Of a stretch of DNA of 38,048 nt, positions 12,093 to 23,282 are shown piece after piece. The notes beneath the pieces are model-generated. The model was not told the DNA's origin. It worked only from the letters and a program-made list of their open reading frames with translations, and made no database searches. Numbering within the stretch: the stretch's first letter is position 1; each line of letters begins with the position of its first letter. The position numbers and the translations under genes are program-made. Origin of the DNA: Methylophilaceae bacterium (lineage in GTDB: Bacteria > Pseudomonadota > Gammaproteobacteria > Burkholderiales > Methylophilaceae); assembly GCA_011391175.1 (NCBI GenBank), contig JAABQZ010000010.1, positions 1 through 38,048 of the forward strand. The letters are read 5' to 3'.

Positions 12093-12108
12093 TGGCACGG
12101 CATTTGCT
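12093..12108 (+). promoter_or_regulatory. Sigma54 (RpoN) promoter of nasT
   Basis: TGGCACGGCATTTGCT matches the TGGCACG-N4-TTGCW consensus, with exactly 10 nt between the GG and GC dinucleotides. Confidence 0.8.
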
Positions 12109-12119
12109 AGCGCTTAGTC

Positions 12120-12698
12120 ATGTTAAAAGTGATGATTATTGATAATGACATCAAACGTAGCAAACCGTTGAAGCAATCACTAATTGATAATGGGTTTGAG
12201 GTAGTGGCTCATGTTGAAAATACGGTAAATTTAGAAGCGAAGTGTTGTGAGGTAAAGCCAGATATTGTCATTATCGATACAGAGTCGCCTTCTCGCGACA
12301 CTTTAGAGAATATTTGCGTGATGACCATGAATGATTCGCGTCCAGTGGTGATGTTTACGCATGATGGTGATAAAGAGAAAATTAAAATTGCTACACAGGC
12401 TGGTGTAAGTGCTTATGTAGTGGGCGATATTCCTAGTGAAAGGCTAATACCAGTGATAGATGCGGCAATAGCGAGGTTTGAAGAGTTTAAAAGTTTACGT
12501 TCTGAACTCAACATGGCAAATCTTAAGTTGGATGAGCGTAAAGTGATTGAGCGCGCAAAAGGCTTGATGATGCGACAACGCCAAATTGATGAAGAAGAAG
12601 CGTACAGTTTATTGCGCAATATGGCGATGAAAAAAAATATGCGATTAGCAGATTTATCGCACCAACTAATTGAAGCAGCAAAAATGTTAATTGTTTAA
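12120..12698 (+). CDS. nasT: ANTAR-domain response regulator (NasT-like antiterminator)
   Basis: 192 aa; receiver domain LKVMIIDND...PDIVIIDTESPSRDTLENI and C-terminal ANTAR ERAKGLMMRQRQIDEEEAYSLLRNMAMKKNMRLADLSHQLIEAAKM; immediately upstream of nrtABD. Confidence 0.92.
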   Translation: MLKVMIIDNDIKRSKPLKQSLIDNGFEVVAHVENTVNLEAKCCEVKPDIVIIDTESPSRDTLENICVMTMNDSRPVVMFTHDGDKEKIKIATQAGVSAYVVGDIPSERLIPVIDAAIARFEEFKSLRSELNMANLKLDERKVIERAKGLMMRQRQIDEEEAYSLLRNMAMKKNMRLADLSHQLIEAAKMLIV

Positions 12699-12714
12699 AT
12701 GCGTTAAGTAGTAA

Positions 12715-12769
12715 GCTTGCCGCCCAACGATGGGCAAGCAAGTTGTAATTACCGTGCCAAAGCTGGCAT
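12715..12769 (+). ncRNA. Two-hairpin ANTAR target RNA in nrtA leader
   Basis: P1: GCTT(gcc)GCCC-AACGAT-GGGCAAGC with hexaloop AACGAT (12726-12731). P2: GTGCC-AAAGCT-GGCAT with hexaloop AAAGCT (12759-12764). Both loops have A at position 1 and G at position 4, the published ANTAR-binding signature; 14-nt linker. Confidence 0.8.
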
Positions 12770-12789
12770 AAATTTTTGTAATAAAAGAC

Positions 12790-12840
12790 AAAGGTGTCTT
12801 AGTAACGAGGTTAATCCCTCGTTGTTAAGGCGCTTTTTTT
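12790..12840 (+). terminator. Regulated intrinsic terminator (attenuator) before nrtA
   Basis: AAAGGTGTCTTAGTAACGAGG-TTAATC-CCTCGTTGTTAAGGCGCTTT folds into a continuous stem of about 21 bp including G-U pairs, running directly into a T-tract. Confidence 0.85.
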
Positions 12841-12872
12841 ATGTGTAAAAACTTTGAGTAAAAGGAAACAAT

Positions 12873-14177
12873 ATGCGAGATCAAGATAAAACCGATATTA
12901 CAGCTGTTAACACAATCGATACTTCCAGCACTGTCGATGCTAGCCGTCGTCAGTTTTTCAGACAAAGCATTGCAGGTGCTTTTGGTGCCGCAGCTGCCTT
13001 AAACATCATGCCAACAGGGATTAAAAATATGGCTCATGCAGCAGGTTCAGATGCACCAGAAATCACGGAAGTTAAAATCGGCTTTATCCCGCTGACTGAT
13101 TGCGCGCCAATTGTAGTGGCTGCCCAAATGGGATTTGATAAAAAGTATGGCATTAAAATTACCCCGTCTAAAGAAGCCTCTTGGGCGGGCGTGCGCGACA
13201 AGCTTATCAATGGTGAGCTGCAAGGCGCGCATGTGTTGTACGGCATGATGTATGGCTCTCAGCTTGGTATCGGCGGTCAGCAAAAAGACATGGCGGTGCT
13301 CATGGCGCTTAACAACAATGGCCAAGGCATTACGCTTTCTAATCAACTTAAAGACAAAGGCGTAAAAGATGGTCGTAGTTTAAAACGTTTAATCAGTAAC
13401 GAAAATCGTGATTACACGTTTGCACAAACCTTCCCTACTGGCACCCATGCCATGTGGCTGAATTATTGGCTTGCAGCTAATGATATTGACCCAATTAAAG
13501 ACGTTAAAAACATTGTGGTGCCGCCACCGCAAATGGTGGCCAATATGCGTATTGGCAATATGGATGGCTACTGTGTAGGGGAGCCTTGGAATGCGCGCGC
13601 TATCAATGATAACGTTGGATTCAGTGTTGCCACTTCACAAGATATTTGGGTTGACCACCCAGAAAAAGTACTGGGCACTACCGCTGAATTTGTTGCCAAA
13701 AATCCAAACACAGCACGCGCCATGGTTGCCGCAGTGTTAGAAGCATGTCGTTATATTGATGCAACTGAAAATCGTGCCAAAGTTGCTAAATTAATTTCTG
13801 GAAAATCTTATGTAAATGCGCCAGAGGATGTCATTGGTGGCCGGTTTGTAGGCAATTACGACAACGGCATTGGTAAGAAATGGAAAGATCCGAATTTCAT
13901 GAAATTCTACAATGATGGCGAAGTGAATTTTCCCTATCTGTCAGATGGCATGTGGTTCTTAACACAGCATAAACGTTGGGGCTTGTTGAAATCCGATCCA
14001 GATTATTTGGCAGTAGCTACTAAAGTGAATCAAATTAAATTGTATAGCGAAGCTGCCGCCATGGCTGGTGTGCCAGTCCCTAAAAACAACATGCGTAGCA
14101 GCAAGTTAATCGATGGCGTGGTATGGGATGGCAAGAACCCAGCTGCCTACGCGGCAGGATTCAAAATTAAAGCTTAA
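12873..14177 (+). CDS. nrtA: Nitrate ABC transporter substrate-binding protein, Tat-type signal
   Basis: 434 aa; SRRQFFRQSIAGAFGAAAAL twin-arginine signal; VKIGFIPLTDCAPIVVAAQMGFDKKYGI, NrtA/CmpA-like. Confidence 0.92.
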   Translation: MRDQDKTDITAVNTIDTSSTVDASRRQFFRQSIAGAFGAAAALNIMPTGIKNMAHAAGSDAPEITEVKIGFIPLTDCAPIVVAAQMGFDKKYGIKITPSKEASWAGVRDKLINGELQGAHVLYGMMYGSQLGIGGQQKDMAVLMALNNNGQGITLSNQLKDKGVKDGRSLKRLISNENRDYTFAQTFPTGTHAMWLNYWLAANDIDPIKDVKNIVVPPPQMVANMRIGNMDGYCVGEPWNARAINDNVGFSVATSQDIWVDHPEKVLGTTAEFVAKNPNTARAMVAAVLEACRYIDATENRAKVAKLISGKSYVNAPEDVIGGRFVGNYDNGIGKKWKDPNFMKFYNDGEVNFPYLSDGMWFLTQHKRWGLLKSDPDYLAVATKVNQIKLYSEAAAMAGVPVPKNNMRSSKLIDGVVWDGKNPAAYAAGFKIKA

Positions 14178-14258: not shown

Positions 14259-15236
14259 ATGAATACGATGCGCTTAAGCAAGAGCTTAATAGACACGTTG
14301 CCGCGTAAGAAAGTGGTAGCGAATGCTACAACTGCGGCTGCCGAAAATGTTCACAAAGAACCTAGCGCCACCTCTACAGAAGCAGAGCTTGTAGAAACAG
14401 AAGTCAAGGCAAAAGTTGCTGACAAACCTTTACCCAAACCTACTGAGCCTAAATCAAAATTAGTGGTCAATATTGAGCAGTTATTAAAGTCCGTGTTGCC
14501 TGCAATATTTGGTTTACTGCTTTTTGTGGGTATCTGGACGTTGATTTCGCACCAATCTCCTAACTTGCCAGGCCCAATGAAAACTTGGGATGCAGCTGTT
14601 ACATTGTTTAGTGATCCATTCTATGACAACGGTCCTAATGATAAAGGCATCGGTTGGAATATTCTCGCCTCGCTTCAACGTGTTTCATTAGGGTTTGGCA
14701 TGGCGGCACTGGTTGGCATTCCTTTGGGATTCATCATCGGTCGTTTTGAATTCGCCAATAAAATGTGTGCTCCCATTATTAGCCTACTGCGTCCTGTATC
14801 GCCTTTGGCTTGGTTACCAATCGGATTATTGGTTTTTAAAGCCGCCAACCCTGCTGCAATCTGGGTGATATTTATCTCAGCAGTTTGGCCGATGATTATC
14901 AACACAGCCGTTGGTGTTAGCAAAGTACCGCAAGACTATATGAACGTGGCCAAAGTGTTGAATTTAAGTGAGTGGAAGATCGTCACTAAAATCTTATTCC
15001 CGTTCGTACTGCCGTACATGATGACAGGTGTGCGTCTATCTATTGGCGTGGCCTGGCTGGTGATTGTAGCGGCAGAAATGCTGACAGGCGGTGTGGGTAT
15101 TGGTTTCTGGGTATGGGACGAATGGAACAACCTTAACGTAGAACACATCATTATTGCCATTTTCATCGTCGGCATTGTCGGCTTGCTACTAGAGCTCATG
15201 TTGACGCAAATCGCAAAACGTTTCAGCTACGAATAA
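14259..15236 (+). CDS. nrtB: Nitrate ABC transporter permease
   Basis: 325 aa; BPD-type permease with EAA-like loop (NVAKVLNLSEWKIVTKILFPFVLPYMMTGVRLSIGVAWLVIVAAEML); N-terminal extension of about 80 aa. Confidence 0.92.
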   Translation: MNTMRLSKSLIDTLPRKKVVANATTAAAENVHKEPSATSTEAELVETEVKAKVADKPLPKPTEPKSKLVVNIEQLLKSVLPAIFGLLLFVGIWTLISHQSPNLPGPMKTWDAAVTLFSDPFYDNGPNDKGIGWNILASLQRVSLGFGMAALVGIPLGFIIGRFEFANKMCAPIISLLRPVSPLAWLPIGLLVFKAANPAAIWVIFISAVWPMIINTAVGVSKVPQDYMNVAKVLNLSEWKIVTKILFPFVLPYMMTGVRLSIGVAWLVIVAAEMLTGGVGIGFWVWDEWNNLNVEHIIIAIFIVGIVGLLLELMLTQIAKRFSYE

Positions 15237-15258
15237 ATCGTCAATTAAGGGGATTGTT

Positions 15259-16095
15259 ATGTCTATCATTGAAAAATCAAATGCTGAAAAATCAGGCAAA
15301 GCCAATACAGAAAAGTATGTGCAGCTTGAAAATGTTGAAATGACCTTCAGCACGAAAAAGGGCGATTTTAATGCGCTCAAAGACGTTAATTTAAGCATTA
15401 AGCAGGGTGAGTTTATCTCCATTATTGGGCATTCTGGATGTGGAAAATCAACTGTGCTTAATTTAATAGCCGGCTTGCTGGTACCGAGTAGTGGCTTTTT
15501 ATTCTGTGCTGGCCGCGAAATTGCAACGCCAGGGCCTGAACGTGCAGTGGTATTTCAAAATCACTCATTATTGCCATGGCTCACTTGTTTTGAAAATGTC
15601 CACTTAGCCGTAGAACGTGTCTTTGGTGGCGAAACAAAAGCGCAACAAGTAGCACGCACTTATGCCGCGCTTGAATTAGTTGGGCTAAGTCATGCAGTAG
15701 AAAAGCGTCCAAATGAAATATCTGGCGGTATGAAACAGCGCGTGGGTATCGCTAGAGCGCTCGCGATGGAACCCAAAGTGCTATTGCTAGACGAGCCGTT
15801 TGGTGCGCTGGACGCTTTAACCCGCGCAGGTTTGCAGGATGAGCTGATGCGTATTATGCAAAAATCTGGCGCAACTGGCGTCATGGTCACGCACGATGTA
15901 GATGAAGCCGTGCTGCTGTCTGACCGGATTGTGATGATGACCAACGGCCCGAGTGCCAGCATAGGTGAGATTCTCACGGTCGACTTACCCTACCCGCGCA
16001 AACGCCTTGAGCTAGCAGAAAACGCTGAATACAACCATCTGCGTTCCGAAGTATTGAAATTCCTATACGAACGCCATGCTAAAAAAGCTGCTTAA
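15259..16095 (+). CDS. nrtD: Nitrate ABC transporter ATP-binding protein
   Basis: 278 aa; Walker A GHSGCGKST, signature SGGMKQRVGIARAL, Walker B VLLLDEPFGALDALTR. Confidence 0.92.
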   Translation: MSIIEKSNAEKSGKANTEKYVQLENVEMTFSTKKGDFNALKDVNLSIKQGEFISIIGHSGCGKSTVLNLIAGLLVPSSGFLFCAGREIATPGPERAVVFQNHSLLPWLTCFENVHLAVERVFGGETKAQQVARTYAALELVGLSHAVEKRPNEISGGMKQRVGIARALAMEPKVLLLDEPFGALDALTRAGLQDELMRIMQKSGATGVMVTHDVDEAVLLSDRIVMMTNGPSASIGEILTVDLPYPRKRLELAENAEYNHLRSEVLKFLYERHAKKAA

Positions 16096-16122
16096 CATTT
16101 TTTTAAATTTAGAAAGAACCTC

Positions 16123-17553
16123 ATGAAAAACGCTAACCATAAATTAAAATTAATCACTGCCTTAATCGCATTATCTGCGGCGGCTCCTATCACCCATGCT
16201 GAAGAAGCGAATGATGTTGTAGAAGATTACACATTGTTAAATTCGATTAAACAAGGCAAATCGCTAAGTAGCGTACGGGCGCGTTATGAAATGGTTGACC
16301 AAGATGGCTTTCAATCAGCGGCAGCCAATGCACCAAAATTGGACGATGCTTATGCCTTTACCACACGCACACTGATCGGTTGGCAAACCGCACCGTTTAA
16401 AAACTTCAGTTTTGGTGCGCAAATTACCGATGTACATGAATTCAACGACGACTTTAATGACCGCCGTGATAACTTGCCAGAGCACAATAATGGTACAGCC
16501 AGTTCAAATGCATTTAAAAGCCAATTTCCAAACATTGTAGATCCAGGCTTTACTGACATCAATCAGCTATTTGTAGAATGGACGGGGATTAAAAATACCA
16601 AACTGAAATTAGGTCGCCAAATTGTTAACTTAGACAATGTACGTTTTATTGGCGACATTGCTTTCCGCCAGAATACGCAAGTATTTGACGGTATTTCTGT
16701 AGTGAATAAAAGTATCCCGAATACTGAAATTTTTGCCTCACAATTTAGTAAAGTACGGCAAGTAAATACCAAATCGCGGGATGGTAATATCAGTTTGCTC
16801 AACGCAAAATATCGTTGGGCACCAACCGAATCACTAGCGGGCTACGCGTATTTGGTTGATGTGGATAACTTAAGTCAAAACAATGGCAATCCTGCTGCAG
16901 TTGGCACTGCAGCACAAGGAGGCAATGGCTTGGGTGCTAGCGATGATTTAGTAAAAACAGCCACCACCGATGCCAGCAGCAAAACCTTTGGCTTGCGTTT
17001 AGATGGCGTGCACATTTTTAACCCAACCTGGAAAGGCTTGTATACAGCCGAATACGCCAAGCAAGACGATTACCGTGGCGGCAGCCCATTGATTGATGCG
17101 CACTACTTTAAAATTGGTGGCGGTGTAGGCTACGACGCATGGTCGCTGCGGATTGATCACGAAAAACTTTCTAGCAACGATGGTCAATATGGATTTCAAA
17201 CACCATTAGGCACGAATCACCTATTTCAAGGCTGGTCAGATCACTTCTTAGCCACGCCACGCCAAGGCATAGAAGATACCTTTATTACGCTTGCAGGTAG
17301 CATCGAAAAAGCCAAGTTACATGCTGAATATCACGTGCTTAAATCGGATGAAGAATTTCAATCGATTGGCAAACTGGGCGATAAATACGGTACAGAGTTT
17401 GATGCCAGCGTCATGTATCCATTTACTGATGCAGTATGGGGCAAGGTTGAGTATGCCAAATTTAATGAAAGCGATGTATACGGCGGTCTGCGTAACGCAG
17501 CACGCAAAGGTGACAAGGAGATCATTTGGGTAACAGCTCAGTTTAGTTTTTAG
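16123..17553 (+). CDS. Outer-membrane porin, alginate-export family, putative nitrate channel
   Basis: 476 aa; signal peptide KLITALIALSAAAPITHA, beta-barrel pattern, KLGRQIVNLDNVRFIGDIAFRQNTQVFDGISV, C-terminal WVTAQFSF. Confidence 0.75.
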   Translation: MKNANHKLKLITALIALSAAAPITHAEEANDVVEDYTLLNSIKQGKSLSSVRARYEMVDQDGFQSAAANAPKLDDAYAFTTRTLIGWQTAPFKNFSFGAQITDVHEFNDDFNDRRDNLPEHNNGTASSNAFKSQFPNIVDPGFTDINQLFVEWTGIKNTKLKLGRQIVNLDNVRFIGDIAFRQNTQVFDGISVVNKSIPNTEIFASQFSKVRQVNTKSRDGNISLLNAKYRWAPTESLAGYAYLVDVDNLSQNNGNPAAVGTAAQGGNGLGASDDLVKTATTDASSKTFGLRLDGVHIFNPTWKGLYTAEYAKQDDYRGGSPLIDAHYFKIGGGVGYDAWSLRIDHEKLSSNDGQYGFQTPLGTNHLFQGWSDHFLATPRQGIEDTFITLAGSIEKAKLHAEYHVLKSDEEFQSIGKLGDKYGTEFDASVMYPFTDAVWGKVEYAKFNESDVYGGLRNAARKGDKEIIWVTAQFSF

Positions 17554-17582
17554 CCCCTAACTACTAAAGCATTAAAACACCT

Positions 17583-17628
17583 GCTCTGTAAGCCAATATC
17601 CATCAGGCTTACAGGGCACTAATTTTTT
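17583..17628 (+). terminator. Intrinsic terminator after the porin gene
   Basis: GCTCTGTAAGCC-AATATCCATCA-GGCTTACAGGGC, 12-bp stem with one G-U pair, followed by ACTAATTTTTTAT. Confidence 0.75.
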
Positions 17629-17673
17629 ATCGTGATTAATGTGCGTTATTGTTTAAACAATATATTCAAGCAA

Positions 17674-17721
17674 TGCACCGTTTTAGGTCACAGGCACGGC
17701 ACGCCTGCCTTTTTTGGTGCA
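17674..17721. promoter_or_regulatory. Candidate NtrC half-sites upstream of nirB
   Basis: TGCACC (17674-17679) and GGTGCA (17716-17721) as inverted half-sites 42 bp apart, about 90-140 bp upstream of the predicted sigma54 start. Confidence 0.4.
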
Positions 17722-17785
17722 AATTGTTTAGGCTGTTGATACACAAATAGCATAAGACTTTATTTATATTGATTATTTTATATTG

Positions 17786-17801
17786 GCACACATATTGCAA
17801 A
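17786..17801 (+). promoter_or_regulatory. Sigma54 (RpoN) promoter of the nirB operon
   Basis: TGGCACACATATTGCA; 10-nt GG-to-GC spacing matches the RpoN -24/-12 element; ATG of nirB 37 nt further downstream. Confidence 0.75.
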
Positions 17802-17838
17802 AGTAATACGAAATATTCTTAAGTTTGGATCGACAACA

Positions 17839-20283
17839 ATGCAAAAAATGAAGTTAGTAGTGGTTGGTAATGGCATGGCCGGCATGCGTGTGGTAGAAGA
17901 ATTACTGAAAATCGCGCCAGATATTTACGACATTACCGTATTTGGTGATGAGCCCTACCCTAATTACAACCGTATTATGCTGTCACCGGTGTTGGCAAAC
18001 GAGCAAACCATTAACGATATTATCTTGAATACGCGCGAGTGGTATGCCGAGAATAATATTACGCTGTATACCAGTGCACGCATCAACAAGATTGACCGTA
18101 AGAATCGTGTGGTTTATGCGGAAGATGGCGCCAGTGCGGAATACGACAGGCTTTTATTAGCCACTGGCTCTAAGCCGTTTATGTTGCCGATTGAAGGCGC
18201 TAATTTAGAGGGCGTGATTGGTTATCGTGATATTAAAGACACCAATGACATGATAGACGCCGCAAAGAAACATAAGCATGCGGTGGTAATTGGTGGTGGC
18301 CTACTTGGGCTTGAAGCCGCCAATGGCTTAAAAATTCAAGGCATGGAAGTCACGGTAATTCACCGTAACGAGTGGTTGCTAGAAAAGCAACTAGACAAAA
18401 CTGCAGGGAAAATGCTGCAAAAAAACCTAGAAGCCAAAGGCTTGAATTTTCAGTTAAAACAGAATACTAAAGAACTTACAGGTGACGGTGCTGATGGAAA
18501 ATCAGGTCGCGTCAACACTATCCACTTTACTGACGGCTCTAGCTTGCCTGCTGATTTAGTGGTGATGGCGGTTGGCATTCGTCCAAATTTTAGTTTAGCT
18601 GAATCGGCAGGTATTTACTGCAATAAAGGTATTGTGGTGAATGACACCATGCAAACCTACGACCCGCGCGTGTATGCAGTGGGCGAATGCGTTGCACACC
18701 GCGGCATCTCTTATGGCCTGGTTGCACCCTTGTTCGAAATGGCCAAAGTATGTGCCACCCATTTGGCCAATTTTGGTATTGGTCAATATAAAGGTTCAGT
18801 CACTTCTACCAAATTAAAAGTGACTGGTGTTGATTTATTCAGTGCAGGCGACTTTGGCAACATTGATGATGGTCGCGAAGAAATTGTTTTGCACGATGCA
18901 GTGGGCGGGGTTTACAAAAAACTCGTCATCAAAGATGACAAAATCATCGGTAGCGTGCTTTATGGAGATACCGCCGATGGCGCTTGGTATTTCAAAATGC
19001 TGCGTGATGGTAAACCCATCCACGAAATTCGCGATAGCCTGATGTTCGGCCAAGACTCACTTGGCAACACTGGCCATCAAGGCCAAGACAAAGCAGCGGC
19101 CATGACCAACGAAATGGAAGTATGCGGCTGTAATGGCGTGTGCAAAGGCACTATTGTGAAAGCCATTCAAGACCAAGGCTTATTTACCATTGACGATGTT
19201 AAAAAACAAACCAAAGCTGGCTCCAGTTGTGGCAGTTGCGTTGGCTTAGTTGAGCAAATTTTAGCCTCAACACTAGGCGGCGGCTATGCGCCACCCTCTA
19301 GTAGCAAAGCTGTTTGCGGTTGTTCCGATAAAAACCATGAAGAAGTACGGGCAGAAATTCGCACACACAAATATTTAAATATTCCCGATGCCATGAAAGG
19401 TATGGGCTGGCGCACGCCAAATGGTTGCGCCACTTGCAGGCCTGCATTGAATTATTACTTGCTCTCCACTTGGCCGCATGAGGCGGTGGATGATCCGCAA
19501 TCTCGCTTTATTAATGAGCGGGTGCACGCCAACATTCAAAAGGATGGTACCTATTCAGTGATTCCGCGCATGTATGGCGGCGTGACGAGTTCTGACCAAC
19601 TACGTAAAATTGCTGACGTGGCCGACAAGTACGCCGTACCGATGGTAAAAGTCACCGGTGGGCAACGGATTGACTTGTTAGGCGTGAAGAAAGAAGACTT
19701 GGTCGACATGTGGAAAGACCTCGACATGCCATCCGGCTATGCCTATGCCAAAGGTATTCGTACGGTTAAAACCTGTGTAGGTTCGGAATTCTGTCGCTTC
19801 GGTACACAAAACTCTACCCAAATGGGCATTGATATTGAAAAAGCATTTGATCATATGTGGGCGCCCCATAAAGTGAAATTCGCTGTCTCGGGCTGCCCTA
19901 GAAACTGCGCCGAATCTGGCATTAAGGATGTGGGCATTATTGGTGTAGATTCTGGATGGGAAATTTATGTCGGCGGTAACGGTGGCATTAAAACTGAAGT
20001 TGCGCAGTTTCTGTGTAAAGTCAAAACCTCAGATGAGGTACTGGAGTATTCAGGTGCGTTTATCCAAATATACCGCGAAGAAGCAAGGTATTTGGACAGA
20101 ACCGTACATTGGATAGAACGCGTGGGCTTGGAATATGTAAAACAACGCATATTAGAGGATGCTGAAGGCCGCAAAGCCGCTTATGAACGTTTACTCTATG
20201 CACTACAAGGCGCGGTAAACCCTTGGGCCGAGCGTGTAGAAAAACGCGAGCAGCACAAAGAGTTTGAAACGATTATCGTCTAA
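17839..20283 (+). CDS. nirB: Nitrite reductase (NADH) large subunit
   Basis: 814 aa; N-terminal FAD/NAD oxidoreductase (VVVGNGMAGMRVVEELL), BFD-like Cys cluster (CGCNGVCKGTI...SSCGSCVGLVEQIL), sulfite/nitrite reductase motifs (TCVGSEFCRFGTQNS, AVSGCPRNCAESGIKDVGI). Confidence 0.96.
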   Translation: MQKMKLVVVGNGMAGMRVVEELLKIAPDIYDITVFGDEPYPNYNRIMLSPVLANEQTINDIILNTREWYAENNITLYTSARINKIDRKNRVVYAEDGASAEYDRLLLATGSKPFMLPIEGANLEGVIGYRDIKDTNDMIDAAKKHKHAVVIGGGLLGLEAANGLKIQGMEVTVIHRNEWLLEKQLDKTAGKMLQKNLEAKGLNFQLKQNTKELTGDGADGKSGRVNTIHFTDGSSLPADLVVMAVGIRPNFSLAESAGIYCNKGIVVNDTMQTYDPRVYAVGECVAHRGISYGLVAPLFEMAKVCATHLANFGIGQYKGSVTSTKLKVTGVDLFSAGDFGNIDDGREEIVLHDAVGGVYKKLVIKDDKIIGSVLYGDTADGAWYFKMLRDGKPIHEIRDSLMFGQDSLGNTGHQGQDKAAAMTNEMEVCGCNGVCKGTIVKAIQDQGLFTIDDVKKQTKAGSSCGSCVGLVEQILASTLGGGYAPPSSSKAVCGCSDKNHEEVRAEIRTHKYLNIPDAMKGMGWRTPNGCATCRPALNYYLLSTWPHEAVDDPQSRFINERVHANIQKDGTYSVIPRMYGGVTSSDQLRKIADVADKYAVPMVKVTGGQRIDLLGVKKEDLVDMWKDLDMPSGYAYAKGIRTVKTCVGSEFCRFGTQNSTQMGIDIEKAFDHMWAPHKVKFAVSGCPRNCAESGIKDVGIIGVDSGWEIYVGGNGGIKTEVAQFLCKVKTSDEVLEYSGAFIQIYREEARYLDRTVHWIERVGLEYVKQRILEDAEGRKAAYERLLYALQGAVNPWAERVEKREQHKEFETIIV

Positions 20284-20349
20284 TCTCACATCAAATTACC
20301 ACATTAAATTACTACTTTAAGTTTATAGAGCATCAATTTAGGAAAGTTT

Positions 20350-21561
20350 ATGAAATCTAGTTTTTGGAAAGCTGGCCACACCCCAACCTTACTGTCCTCT
20401 TTTTTATACTTCGATTTAAGCTTCATGGTGTGGGTGCTATTAGGCCCACTAGCGGTACAAATTGCCACTGATTTAAACCTAACGCCTGCGCAAAAAGGCT
20501 TGATGGTTGCCACTCCTGTGCTGGCGGGTGCACTATTGCGTATTGTAATGGGCGTACTGGTTGACCAAATCAAGCCGAAAAATGCAGGCACCATCGGTCA
20601 AATTATTGTAATTACCAGCCTGCTCATCGCTTGGCTGCATGGCCTACAAACCTTTCAGCACACATTGATGCTGGGTATTGGATTAGGGTTTGCAGGTGCA
20701 GCATTCGCTGTTGCATTGCCTTTAGCCAGTCGCTGGTATCCGCCAGAACACCAAGGCACCGCTTTGGGTATTGCTGGCGCAGGTAATTCAGGCACCGTAT
20801 TTGCTGCTTTATTTGCGCCTAGTTTGGCGGTTGCTTATGGTTGGAATAATGTATTTGGTCTAGCGCTAATTCCACTGGGAATTGCATTGGCGGTATATAT
20901 GATATTTGCTAAGGATAGTCCAGACACCCCGCCTGCTAAATCTTTAAGCCAATATTTAGCTATTTTGAAAGATAAAGACGCTTGGTGGTTTATGTTTTTT
21001 TACAGTGTGACTTTTGGTGGATTTGTGGGTCTGGCTTCAAGCCTCACCATCTACTTTAACGATTTATATAGCCTAGGCCCTGTGGTCGCGGGTTATTGTA
21101 CGGCGGCATGTGTATTTGCAGGCTCATTAGTGCGCCCTATTGGTGGCATGATTGCCGATCGTATTGGCGGCATTCGCACGCTACTTGCCATGTATGCAAT
21201 TGCAGCTATATTATTGGTAGTGATGAGCTTTGGTCAACCAACTTACCAATTAGCACTGGCTATTATTGTGCCAGTCATGGCCGTATTAGGTATGGGCAAT
21301 GGCGCAGTATTCCAATTAGTGCCGCAACGCTTTCGTAAAGAAATCGGCGTAATGACTGGTTTAGTGGGCATGGCCGGTGGCGTGGGTGGTTTCTACTTGG
21401 CAGCAAGTTTGGGTTACATCAAACAAGCGACGGGTAACTACCAAATTGGTATCTTGATTTTTGCAGGTCTATCACTACTGGCTATGATTGGCTTAAGTGG
21501 CGTAAAAACACGCTGGAGAACAACCTGGGGTAGCGCGACAGCAACATCTGCAAAAGTGTAA
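20350..21561 (+). CDS. narK: MFS nitrate/nitrite transporter (NarK/NasA type)
   Basis: 403 aa; FDLSFMVWVLLGPLAVQIATDLNLTPAQKGLMVATPVLAGALLRI; GNGAVFQLVPQRF and GGVGGFYL signatures. Confidence 0.93.
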   Translation: MKSSFWKAGHTPTLLSSFLYFDLSFMVWVLLGPLAVQIATDLNLTPAQKGLMVATPVLAGALLRIVMGVLVDQIKPKNAGTIGQIIVITSLLIAWLHGLQTFQHTLMLGIGLGFAGAAFAVALPLASRWYPPEHQGTALGIAGAGNSGTVFAALFAPSLAVAYGWNNVFGLALIPLGIALAVYMIFAKDSPDTPPAKSLSQYLAILKDKDAWWFMFFYSVTFGGFVGLASSLTIYFNDLYSLGPVVAGYCTAACVFAGSLVRPIGGMIADRIGGIRTLLAMYAIAAILLVVMSFGQPTYQLALAIIVPVMAVLGMGNGAVFQLVPQRFRKEIGVMTGLVGMAGGVGGFYLAASLGYIKQATGNYQIGILIFAGLSLLAMIGLSGVKTRWRTTWGSATATSAKV

Positions 21562-21587: not shown

Positions 21588-23282
21588 ATGTCTTTAGAAT
21601 TTGAAATTGGCCAATCCAGCCAAACTGGTCCTCGCGCACGTAACGAAGACTATGTAGGCGTTGTCACGCCTAGCAATGAGCAGCTCCGTATTAAAGGTGC
21701 ACTGATTGCTGTGGCTGACGGCGTAAGCGGCAATGCCGGTGGCGGCGAAGCCTCAGAGATGACGGTACGCACAATTACTGCCGACTACTACGCGACTCCA
21801 GACACTTGGGAACCTCCTACCGCACTTGAAAAAGTAATTATCGCGGCGAATCGCTGGCTAATTTCACAAGCAAGTGCCAATCGTGATTTGGCGGGTATGG
21901 CCACAACACTGTCACTGGTTGTTTTACGTGGTCAGCGCTATTATTTAGCACATGTAGGTGACACACGTATATATTTGTTGCGCGATGGTGTGCTTAAGCA
22001 ACTTACCACCGACCATGTCTGGGATAGGCCTGATATGCGTCATGTGTTAAAACGCGCAGTCGGGCTGGATGCACACTTAGCCATCGATTTTGCTGAAGGT
22101 GCACTGCAAGCAGGTGATGTGTTTACGTTGCTTAGTGATGGTGTATGGGAAACCTTAGGAGATAAGGCGATACATGAAAGCTTATTAAAGTTTAATAGTA
22201 CGCAAATGGTAGCAGACCACTTAACCAAAACTGCGCTAGACAAACAAAGTGCAGATAATTCTACTGCAGTCGTCATTAAAATTAACGCACTTGGCGCAGA
22301 CACACTGTCTGAGCGCATTGCTGGAGGAAAACATCTAGCCTTGCCAGCAAAACTTAGCAACGGTGAATTGATTGATGATTTTGAAGTGGTTGAATTACTA
22401 CATGAATCGCGTGCGAGTTTATTGTATAAAGTTCGCAAAACGGATACTAAACAGCTTTTTGTACTTAAAACTTTACAACCTTTGTTAGCCAATGACGTAG
22501 AAAGTATTAACGGCTTGCTTAACGAGGAGTGGCTTGGTAAGCGCGTAGTTTCACAATTTATTCCGCAAGTGTTACCACTGTCAATGGAGAAGCGTAGCAA
22601 GCTTTACTTTGTAATGAGTTGGTTTGAGGGTGCAACTTTGCAGCAACGCCTGAACAGTGGTCATTATTTTACCGCAGCTGGTACAGCAAAGATTGCCATT
22701 GATATGCTGCGCGGCATCGGTGCGTTACATCGGCTTAGCATTATTCATCGAGACATTAAACCTGCCAATATTCATCAGGCCAACGACCAACGCTTACGTA
22801 TTTTAGATTTAGGTGTGGCGCTGAGTACCAGCAGCGAAACTTTAGCTGTGACACAAAATCCCGGTACGCCCAGTTTTATGGCGCCAGAACTGTTTGAAGG
22901 TAACAGCGCCAACGCTCAGACCGATATTTACGCAGCGGGCGTGACACTTTATCATTTGCTAACGCGCAAATACCCGTATGGCGAAATTGAACCGTTTCAG
23001 CACCCAAAGTTTGGAGAGCCCACGCCACTGACGCGATATCGCCCCGACATCCCATACTGGCTAGAAAATATCGTGCTTAAGGCGGTTGCGCGTGAGCCAA
23101 AAGCAAGATTTGAAACCGCAGAGGAAATGCTGCATGCGCTAGAAGTGGGGGAACTCAAGCCCATTCTAGCACCCGCACGCACCCCCTTAATTGCACGTGC
23201 AAGACTGGTAAAATGGCAGTGGATAGCCATTTTTTCTTTTGTTATAAATGTATTATTGATTTATTTATTGTTAGTTTCATAA
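21588..23282 (+). CDS. Bifunctional PP2C-type phosphatase / Ser-Thr protein kinase with C-terminal TM helix
   Basis: 564 aa. PP2C motifs: RARNEDYVG, VADGVSGNAGGGEASE, HVGDTRIYLLRDG, LLSDGVWETLGD, DNSTAVVI. Kinase motifs: VLKTL Lys, IIHRDIKPANI, LDLGVAL, GTPSFMAPELFEG, TDIYAAGVTLYHLLT. TM: WIAIFSFVINVLLIYLLLVS. Confidence 0.92.
   Translation: MSLEFEIGQSSQTGPRARNEDYVGVVTPSNEQLRIKGALIAVADGVSGNAGGGEASEMTVRTITADYYATPDTWEPPTALEKVIIAANRWLISQASANRDLAGMATTLSLVVLRGQRYYLAHVGDTRIYLLRDGVLKQLTTDHVWDRPDMRHVLKRAVGLDAHLAIDFAEGALQAGDVFTLLSDGVWETLGDKAIHESLLKFNSTQMVADHLTKTALDKQSADNSTAVVIKINALGADTLSERIAGGKHLALPAKLSNGELIDDFEVVELLHESRASLLYKVRKTDTKQLFVLKTLQPLLANDVESINGLLNEEWLGKRVVSQFIPQVLPLSMEKRSKLYFVMSWFEGATLQQRLNSGHYFTAAGTAKIAIDMLRGIGALHRLSIIHRDIKPANIHQANDQRLRILDLGVALSTSSETLAVTQNPGTPSFMAPELFEGNSANAQTDIYAAGVTLYHLLTRKYPYGEIEPFQHPKFGEPTPLTRYRPDIPYWLENIVLKAVAREPKARFETAEEMLHALEVGELKPILAPARTPLIARARLVKWQWIAIFSFVINVLLIYLLLVS

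Follow-up and report, generated by a model that had tools for sequence, protein, structure and literature searches.

The interval between nasT (12120-12698) and nrtA (12873-14177) in a Methylotenera-like bacterium raises the question of how the RNA that it encodes might govern transcription of the nitrate genes beyond it. The window, the 38,048-nucleotide stretch of DNA analyzed here, carries the promoter, the hairpins, the terminator and the genes from nasT to the NarK-type transporter on its plus strand. Upstream of the interval, nasT encodes a 192-residue REC-ANTAR protein (Pfam ANTAR, 61.3 bits; Response_reg, 41.4 bits), a putative RNA-binding antiterminator. Downstream, nrtA encodes a nitrate-binding protein with a twin-arginine (SRRQFF) signal (NMT1_2, 360 bits) and is the first gene past the proposed switch; it is followed by nrtB, nrtC (ntrCD), a porin gene, nirB and a NarK-type transporter gene (14259-21561), among which ntrB, ntrCD and nirB scored above their NCBIfam cut-offs and the NarK family and porin below. 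We infer that the genes from nrtA to the transporter are co-transcribed. Judged from its translation, a PP2C-like/Ser-Thr kinase fusion (21588-23282) also lies within the nitrate gene run. A sequence-only reading had proposed an ANTAR target before nrtA, and this proposal is well supported by the adjoining ANTAR gene, the A1/G4 hexaloops, the covarying stems and an overlap between P2 and the terminator. With a probability of roughly 85%, we consider the leader to be an antitermination element of the ANTAR type that NasT reads, with three hexaloops (H1 to H3) of which H2 and H3 form the P1/P2 pair.

The leader contains three hairpins, each presenting a hexaloop with A at position 1 and G at position 4 closed by a C-G pair. 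H1 (gcccAACGATgggc, 12722-12735) and H2 (gtgccAAAGCTggcat, 12754-12769), both recognized by sequence and covariation, are the two hairpins previously described as P1 and P2, and they are real; H3 (aagacAAAGGTgtctt, 12785-12800) is a near-invariant hairpin that had been overlooked. H1 differs in that an internal loop separates its short cap from an outer stem of about 7 bp, so that its minimum-free-energy (MFE) fold spans 12714-12744, whereas H2 has no such extension past 5 bp. The 14-nt linker reported earlier holds when the outer strand of H1 is counted (12740-12753), but the core stems are 18 nt apart. The three hairpins lead to an intrinsic terminator (12791-12840), in which 12791-12810 folds with 12817-12836 as a 20-bp stem, close to the 21 bp first estimated, with several G-U pairs, running into seven T residues (12834-12840). 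Four C-A..G..-G hairpins of at least 4 bp occur on the plus strand of the window, and three of these are H1 to H3, within 110 nt; Markov shuffles yielded 4.4 such hairpins per strand and no triple in 100 runs. Folding of 12711-12845 gave a z-score of -5.5. A looser hexaloop pattern, which matched more than 1,300 places in the same genome, was left out of the analysis. Rfam, which may lack an ANTAR-target model, gave no match to the leader above threshold, and the weak matches were microRNA-type chance hits.

Known ANTAR leaders have a P2 hairpin that shares sequence with the terminator (PMC3369931, PMC3369936). The second loop of the sequence-only reading ends about 21 nt upstream of the terminator stem, in line with the 20 nt or so given there, and its remark that overlap was not obvious is correct for H2. 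The overlap is instead supplied by H3, whose 3' arm (12796-12800) and most of whose loop fall inside the 5' arm of the terminator; H3 and the terminator are therefore mutually exclusive. The segment from H3 to the T-tract folds at -26.5 kcal/mol as a terminator versus -14.9 kcal/mol with H3 forced, a value that includes a remaining, shortened top stem. Among 56 relatives, 51 have a minimum-energy fold in which the H3 3' arm is part of the paired terminator; the five failures stem at least partly from a T-run search that ended early. Since this exclusion matches that of the EutV and NasR leaders, the canonical P1/P2 pair should be H2 and H3, with H1 as an additional upstream hexaloop.

Relatives of NasT occur in 76 of 187 Methylophilaceae genomes; leaders came from 60 loci, or 56 once near-duplicates were removed. 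A1/G4 hexaloops are hugely over-represented upstream of H3 in these 56 leaders: 94 of 111 C-A..G..-G sites have two further Watson-Crick pairs, as against 7 of 147 sites for the other 15 loop signatures combined. At least two hexaloop hairpins upstream of H3, and hence at least three hexaloops, occur in 45 of the 56; in the other 11 a single upstream hexaloop passes the test, which counts against the three-hexaloop account. In an alignment of 23 leaders made from sequence alone, A1 and G4 are invariant in all three loops, and 97.5% of stem cells pair (98.3% for H2) with 38 double changes, a level reached in 0 of 500 shuffles. Seven of the 14 pairs show double changes, distributed as 3/4 in H1, 4/5 in H2 and 0/5 in H3, so that the covariation named earlier as a check was found for both hairpins of that reading. 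H3 is nearly invariant and the most conserved hexaloop; it thus offers little covariation evidence for its own stem, although such constancy is expected if H3 must fit two structures. The outer strands of H1 in 53 relatives pair at a mean of -5.5 kcal/mol with their own partners versus -2.6 kcal/mol when swapped (z = -12.8; 0 of 300 permutations), and their letters vary freely while pairing with the own partner persists. The loop-signature counts and this pairing test lead us to reject H1 as a chance hairpin. In the spacing and outer-stem analyses the automatic choice of H1 and H2 was wrong for some leaders (e.g., L046, L059 and L060); our conclusions rest on the signature count, which involves no hairpin picking per leader, and on the alignment. 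A model of H2, H3 and the terminator (R1) found leaders in 54 of the 187 family genomes, 53 of them with a NasT hit, and one true site in the window's own genome, where a second match is the reverse strand of the same site.

The arrangement of promoters bears on which RNA carries the leader. A sigma54 promoter pattern (TGGCACggcatTTGC, 12093-12107) lies upstream of nasT, and a pattern scan found such a site 5' of nasT in every one of the 56 relatives. From its -12/-24 geometry, transcription in the window is predicted to begin at about 12119, on the start codon of nasT, which should make the nasT mRNA leaderless. Across the window's clade the spacing of the site is conserved at -26 to -28; other clades have a longer one, roughly -48 to -64. 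The same scan, which covered the sigma54 pattern only, found a site between nasT and nrtA in 1 of the 56 leaders. Given these counts, it should be nasT mRNA that is terminated at the leader, giving a product whose 3' end would carry H1 and H2.

Three other readings of the leader were weighed against NasT-dependent antitermination through H2 and H3 with H1 as a third site. The least credible takes the stem for an ordinary 3' terminator of nasT, with incidental hexaloops and a separate promoter for nrtA; stem and T-tract by themselves do resemble a normal terminator, but the loop signature and the covariation speak against it, as does the single sigma54 site between nasT and nrtA among 56 leaders, by which an nrtA promoter of its own is rejected for sigma54. 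Very improbable, too, is the two-hexaloop switch of the sequence-only reading, in which H1 and H2 would be P1 and P2, the terminator would be controlled without overlap and a competing stem at H1 (GCTTGCC/GGCAAGC) would act as an extra switch. Both of its hairpins are real, conserved and, in the window's clade, evenly spaced; the hexaloop that overlaps the terminator and is the most conserved is nevertheless H3, which makes the pair H2 and H3. The competing register would, if formed, open the H1 hexaloop, but it folds at -12.5 kcal/mol compared with -16.7 kcal/mol for the MFE or -16.0 kcal/mol with the hexaloop held open, a deficit of 3.5-4.2 kcal/mol, and in the MFE its flanks instead extend the H1 stem in another register. 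As a switch, this stem can be drawn and is rejected on energy.

A stronger contender, though still an unlikely one, accepts H2 and H3 as a canonical two-hexaloop target and regards H1 as a mere stable hairpin that NasT does not bind, for example one protecting the 3' end of nasT mRNA. The more constant H2-H3 spacing, the variable distance of H1 and the long outer stem on H1 alone would all fit such a role. The H1 loop, however, keeps A1, G4 and the C-G closing pair while its stem letters vary freely, which argues against a hairpin kept for stability only, since this would not need the A1/G4 loop.

The candidate reader of the leader is NasT, the product of the only ANTAR gene found in the window's own genome. 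Its best PDB match is EutV (6wsh/6ww6, E = 1.8e-24), for which the roles of residues in the G4 contact and the methionine plug have been described (PMC8934654). EutV R142, E160, Y164 and M172 correspond to NasT R140, E158, Y162 and M170, which are conserved in 69, 68, 69 and 67 of 69 NasT sequences, respectively; NasT thus combines REC and ANTAR domains with EutV-type RNA contacts. Its REC domain retains the phospho-acceptor Asp53 but has a substitution at the beta5 Lys.

NasS is the usual partner of NasT and is needed for the nitrate response in known NasT systems. No NasS was found in the window's own genome (83.5% complete), where NrtA is the only NMT1_2 gene product, and nasT is not adjoined by the NasS gene that would mark a NasS-NasT two-component system. 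The NasS gene is likewise absent from most genomes with a NasT leader, with a single NMT1_2 gene in complete relatives (e.g., G109, G110, G115 and G173). Four genomes have a separate NasS-like gene next to a second NasT; in one of them (L199 in G134), the second nasT is directly followed by the NasS-like gene, a cobA-like gene, nirB and a transporter gene, with no leader between nasT and nasS. The missing NasS counts against NasT antitermination at this leader.

From the sequence, we infer binding by NasT, its order, read-through and a nitrate signal as follows. RNA polymerase would transcribe nasT from the sigma54 promoter and then the leader. Without bound NasT, transcription probably stops there: the 20-bp terminator would be the default fold and would release a short nasT mRNA. 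Active NasT may bind the hexaloops in the order in which they emerge, H1, H2 and H3, and hold H3, which would consume the lower half of the terminator 5' arm and leave only the terminator top able to form. That top would be too distant from the T-tract to act, so polymerase would proceed into nrtABC and the nitrite-reduction genes. H1, as the conserved third site, might raise local NasT by early docking before the short window in which H3 decides. A bolder and doubtful extension concerns the circuit without NasS: Tat-targeted NrtA, folded in the cytoplasm before export, could stand in for NasS, while terminated nasT mRNA with free H1 and H2 could be a self-made NasT sponge, the three hexaloops then combining relay and feedback. 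Titration of NasT by this mRNA is speculation.

Loci with the H3-terminator motif were also collected at the levels of order and class, mostly near nitrate genes. Outside the family, 20 of 46 leaders have at least two hexaloop hairpins within 120 nt upstream of H3, which indicates that the three-loop form is shared beyond this genome; the higher background there (22 of 252 control sites versus 47 of 87) makes individual cases less certain. These 20 include six leaders from one family (L142-L147), five of which have a sigma54 promoter, by the pattern used, between nasT and H1. In some relatives, R1 sites precede genes for dCache-CheW, PilJ-Hpt-HATPase (plus CheY-like) and GGDEF/EAL proteins (L190-L193 and L195-L197), and such leaders before chemotaxis-like and c-di-GMP genes suggest a wider NasT regulon. 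Another ANTAR-type leader (L194 in G043) precedes genes for a formate/nitrite transporter, a cyanase and a PP2C-like protein.

Set against known systems, the leader is, by its predicted structure, a three-hexaloop variant of the ANTAR target rather than a strict member of the dual-motif class, having three hairpins instead of exactly two; most of its relatives (45 of 56) likewise have three or more. A literature search that lay outside the key Azotobacter papers returned no mention of three-hexaloop ANTAR leaders or of NasT in Methylotenera. In the Enterococcus faecalis eut leaders (PMC3369931, PMC8934654), A1/G4 hexaloops likewise sit on short stems, the second hairpin likewise excludes the terminator and the regulator, EutV, is likewise a REC-ANTAR protein that shares its contact residues with NasT; the present leader differs in its third hexaloop and the extended stem of H1, and its NasT-like regulator carries another residue in place of the beta5 Lys and could not be matched with a histidine kinase partner. 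EutX/rli55, which sequesters EutV, also has an extra hexaloop beyond the dual motif and is an RNA able to titrate an ANTAR protein (PMC8934654), but it is a separate small RNA, whereas here the speculative role of sponge would fall to the terminated nasT mRNA. The 2022 EutV structure led to a model in which the dimer engages hexaloops singly, with P1 handing it over to P2 (PMC8934654). A conserved leader that has three hexaloops in nature, and whose copies vary in their spacing, provides a direct test of this relay.

Among nitrate systems, Paracoccus denitrificans NasS-NasT/nasA likewise pairs a NasT-type ANTAR protein with a hairpin-forming leader that precedes nitrate genes, but the order there is nasT, nasS, leader (PMC3795266, PMC5424462), whereas here the leader directly follows nasT. 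The family also raises the question of how NasT perceives nitrate in genomes that yielded no NasS. The Klebsiella NasR/nasF leader likewise serves nitrate assimilation with A1/G4 P1 and P2 hairpins and a terminator overlap; NasR senses nitrate through its own NIT domain (PMC7496416, PMC3369936), in contrast to the present regulator, which has none. Some Methylophilaceae carry a NIT-ANTAR NasR at this locus instead of NasT, and at several of these loci (L106, L115 and others similar) H3 and the terminator persist but the middle hexaloop seems to be missing. A self-sensing NasR, the regulator at the same locus in sister genera, offers a natural comparison with NasT.
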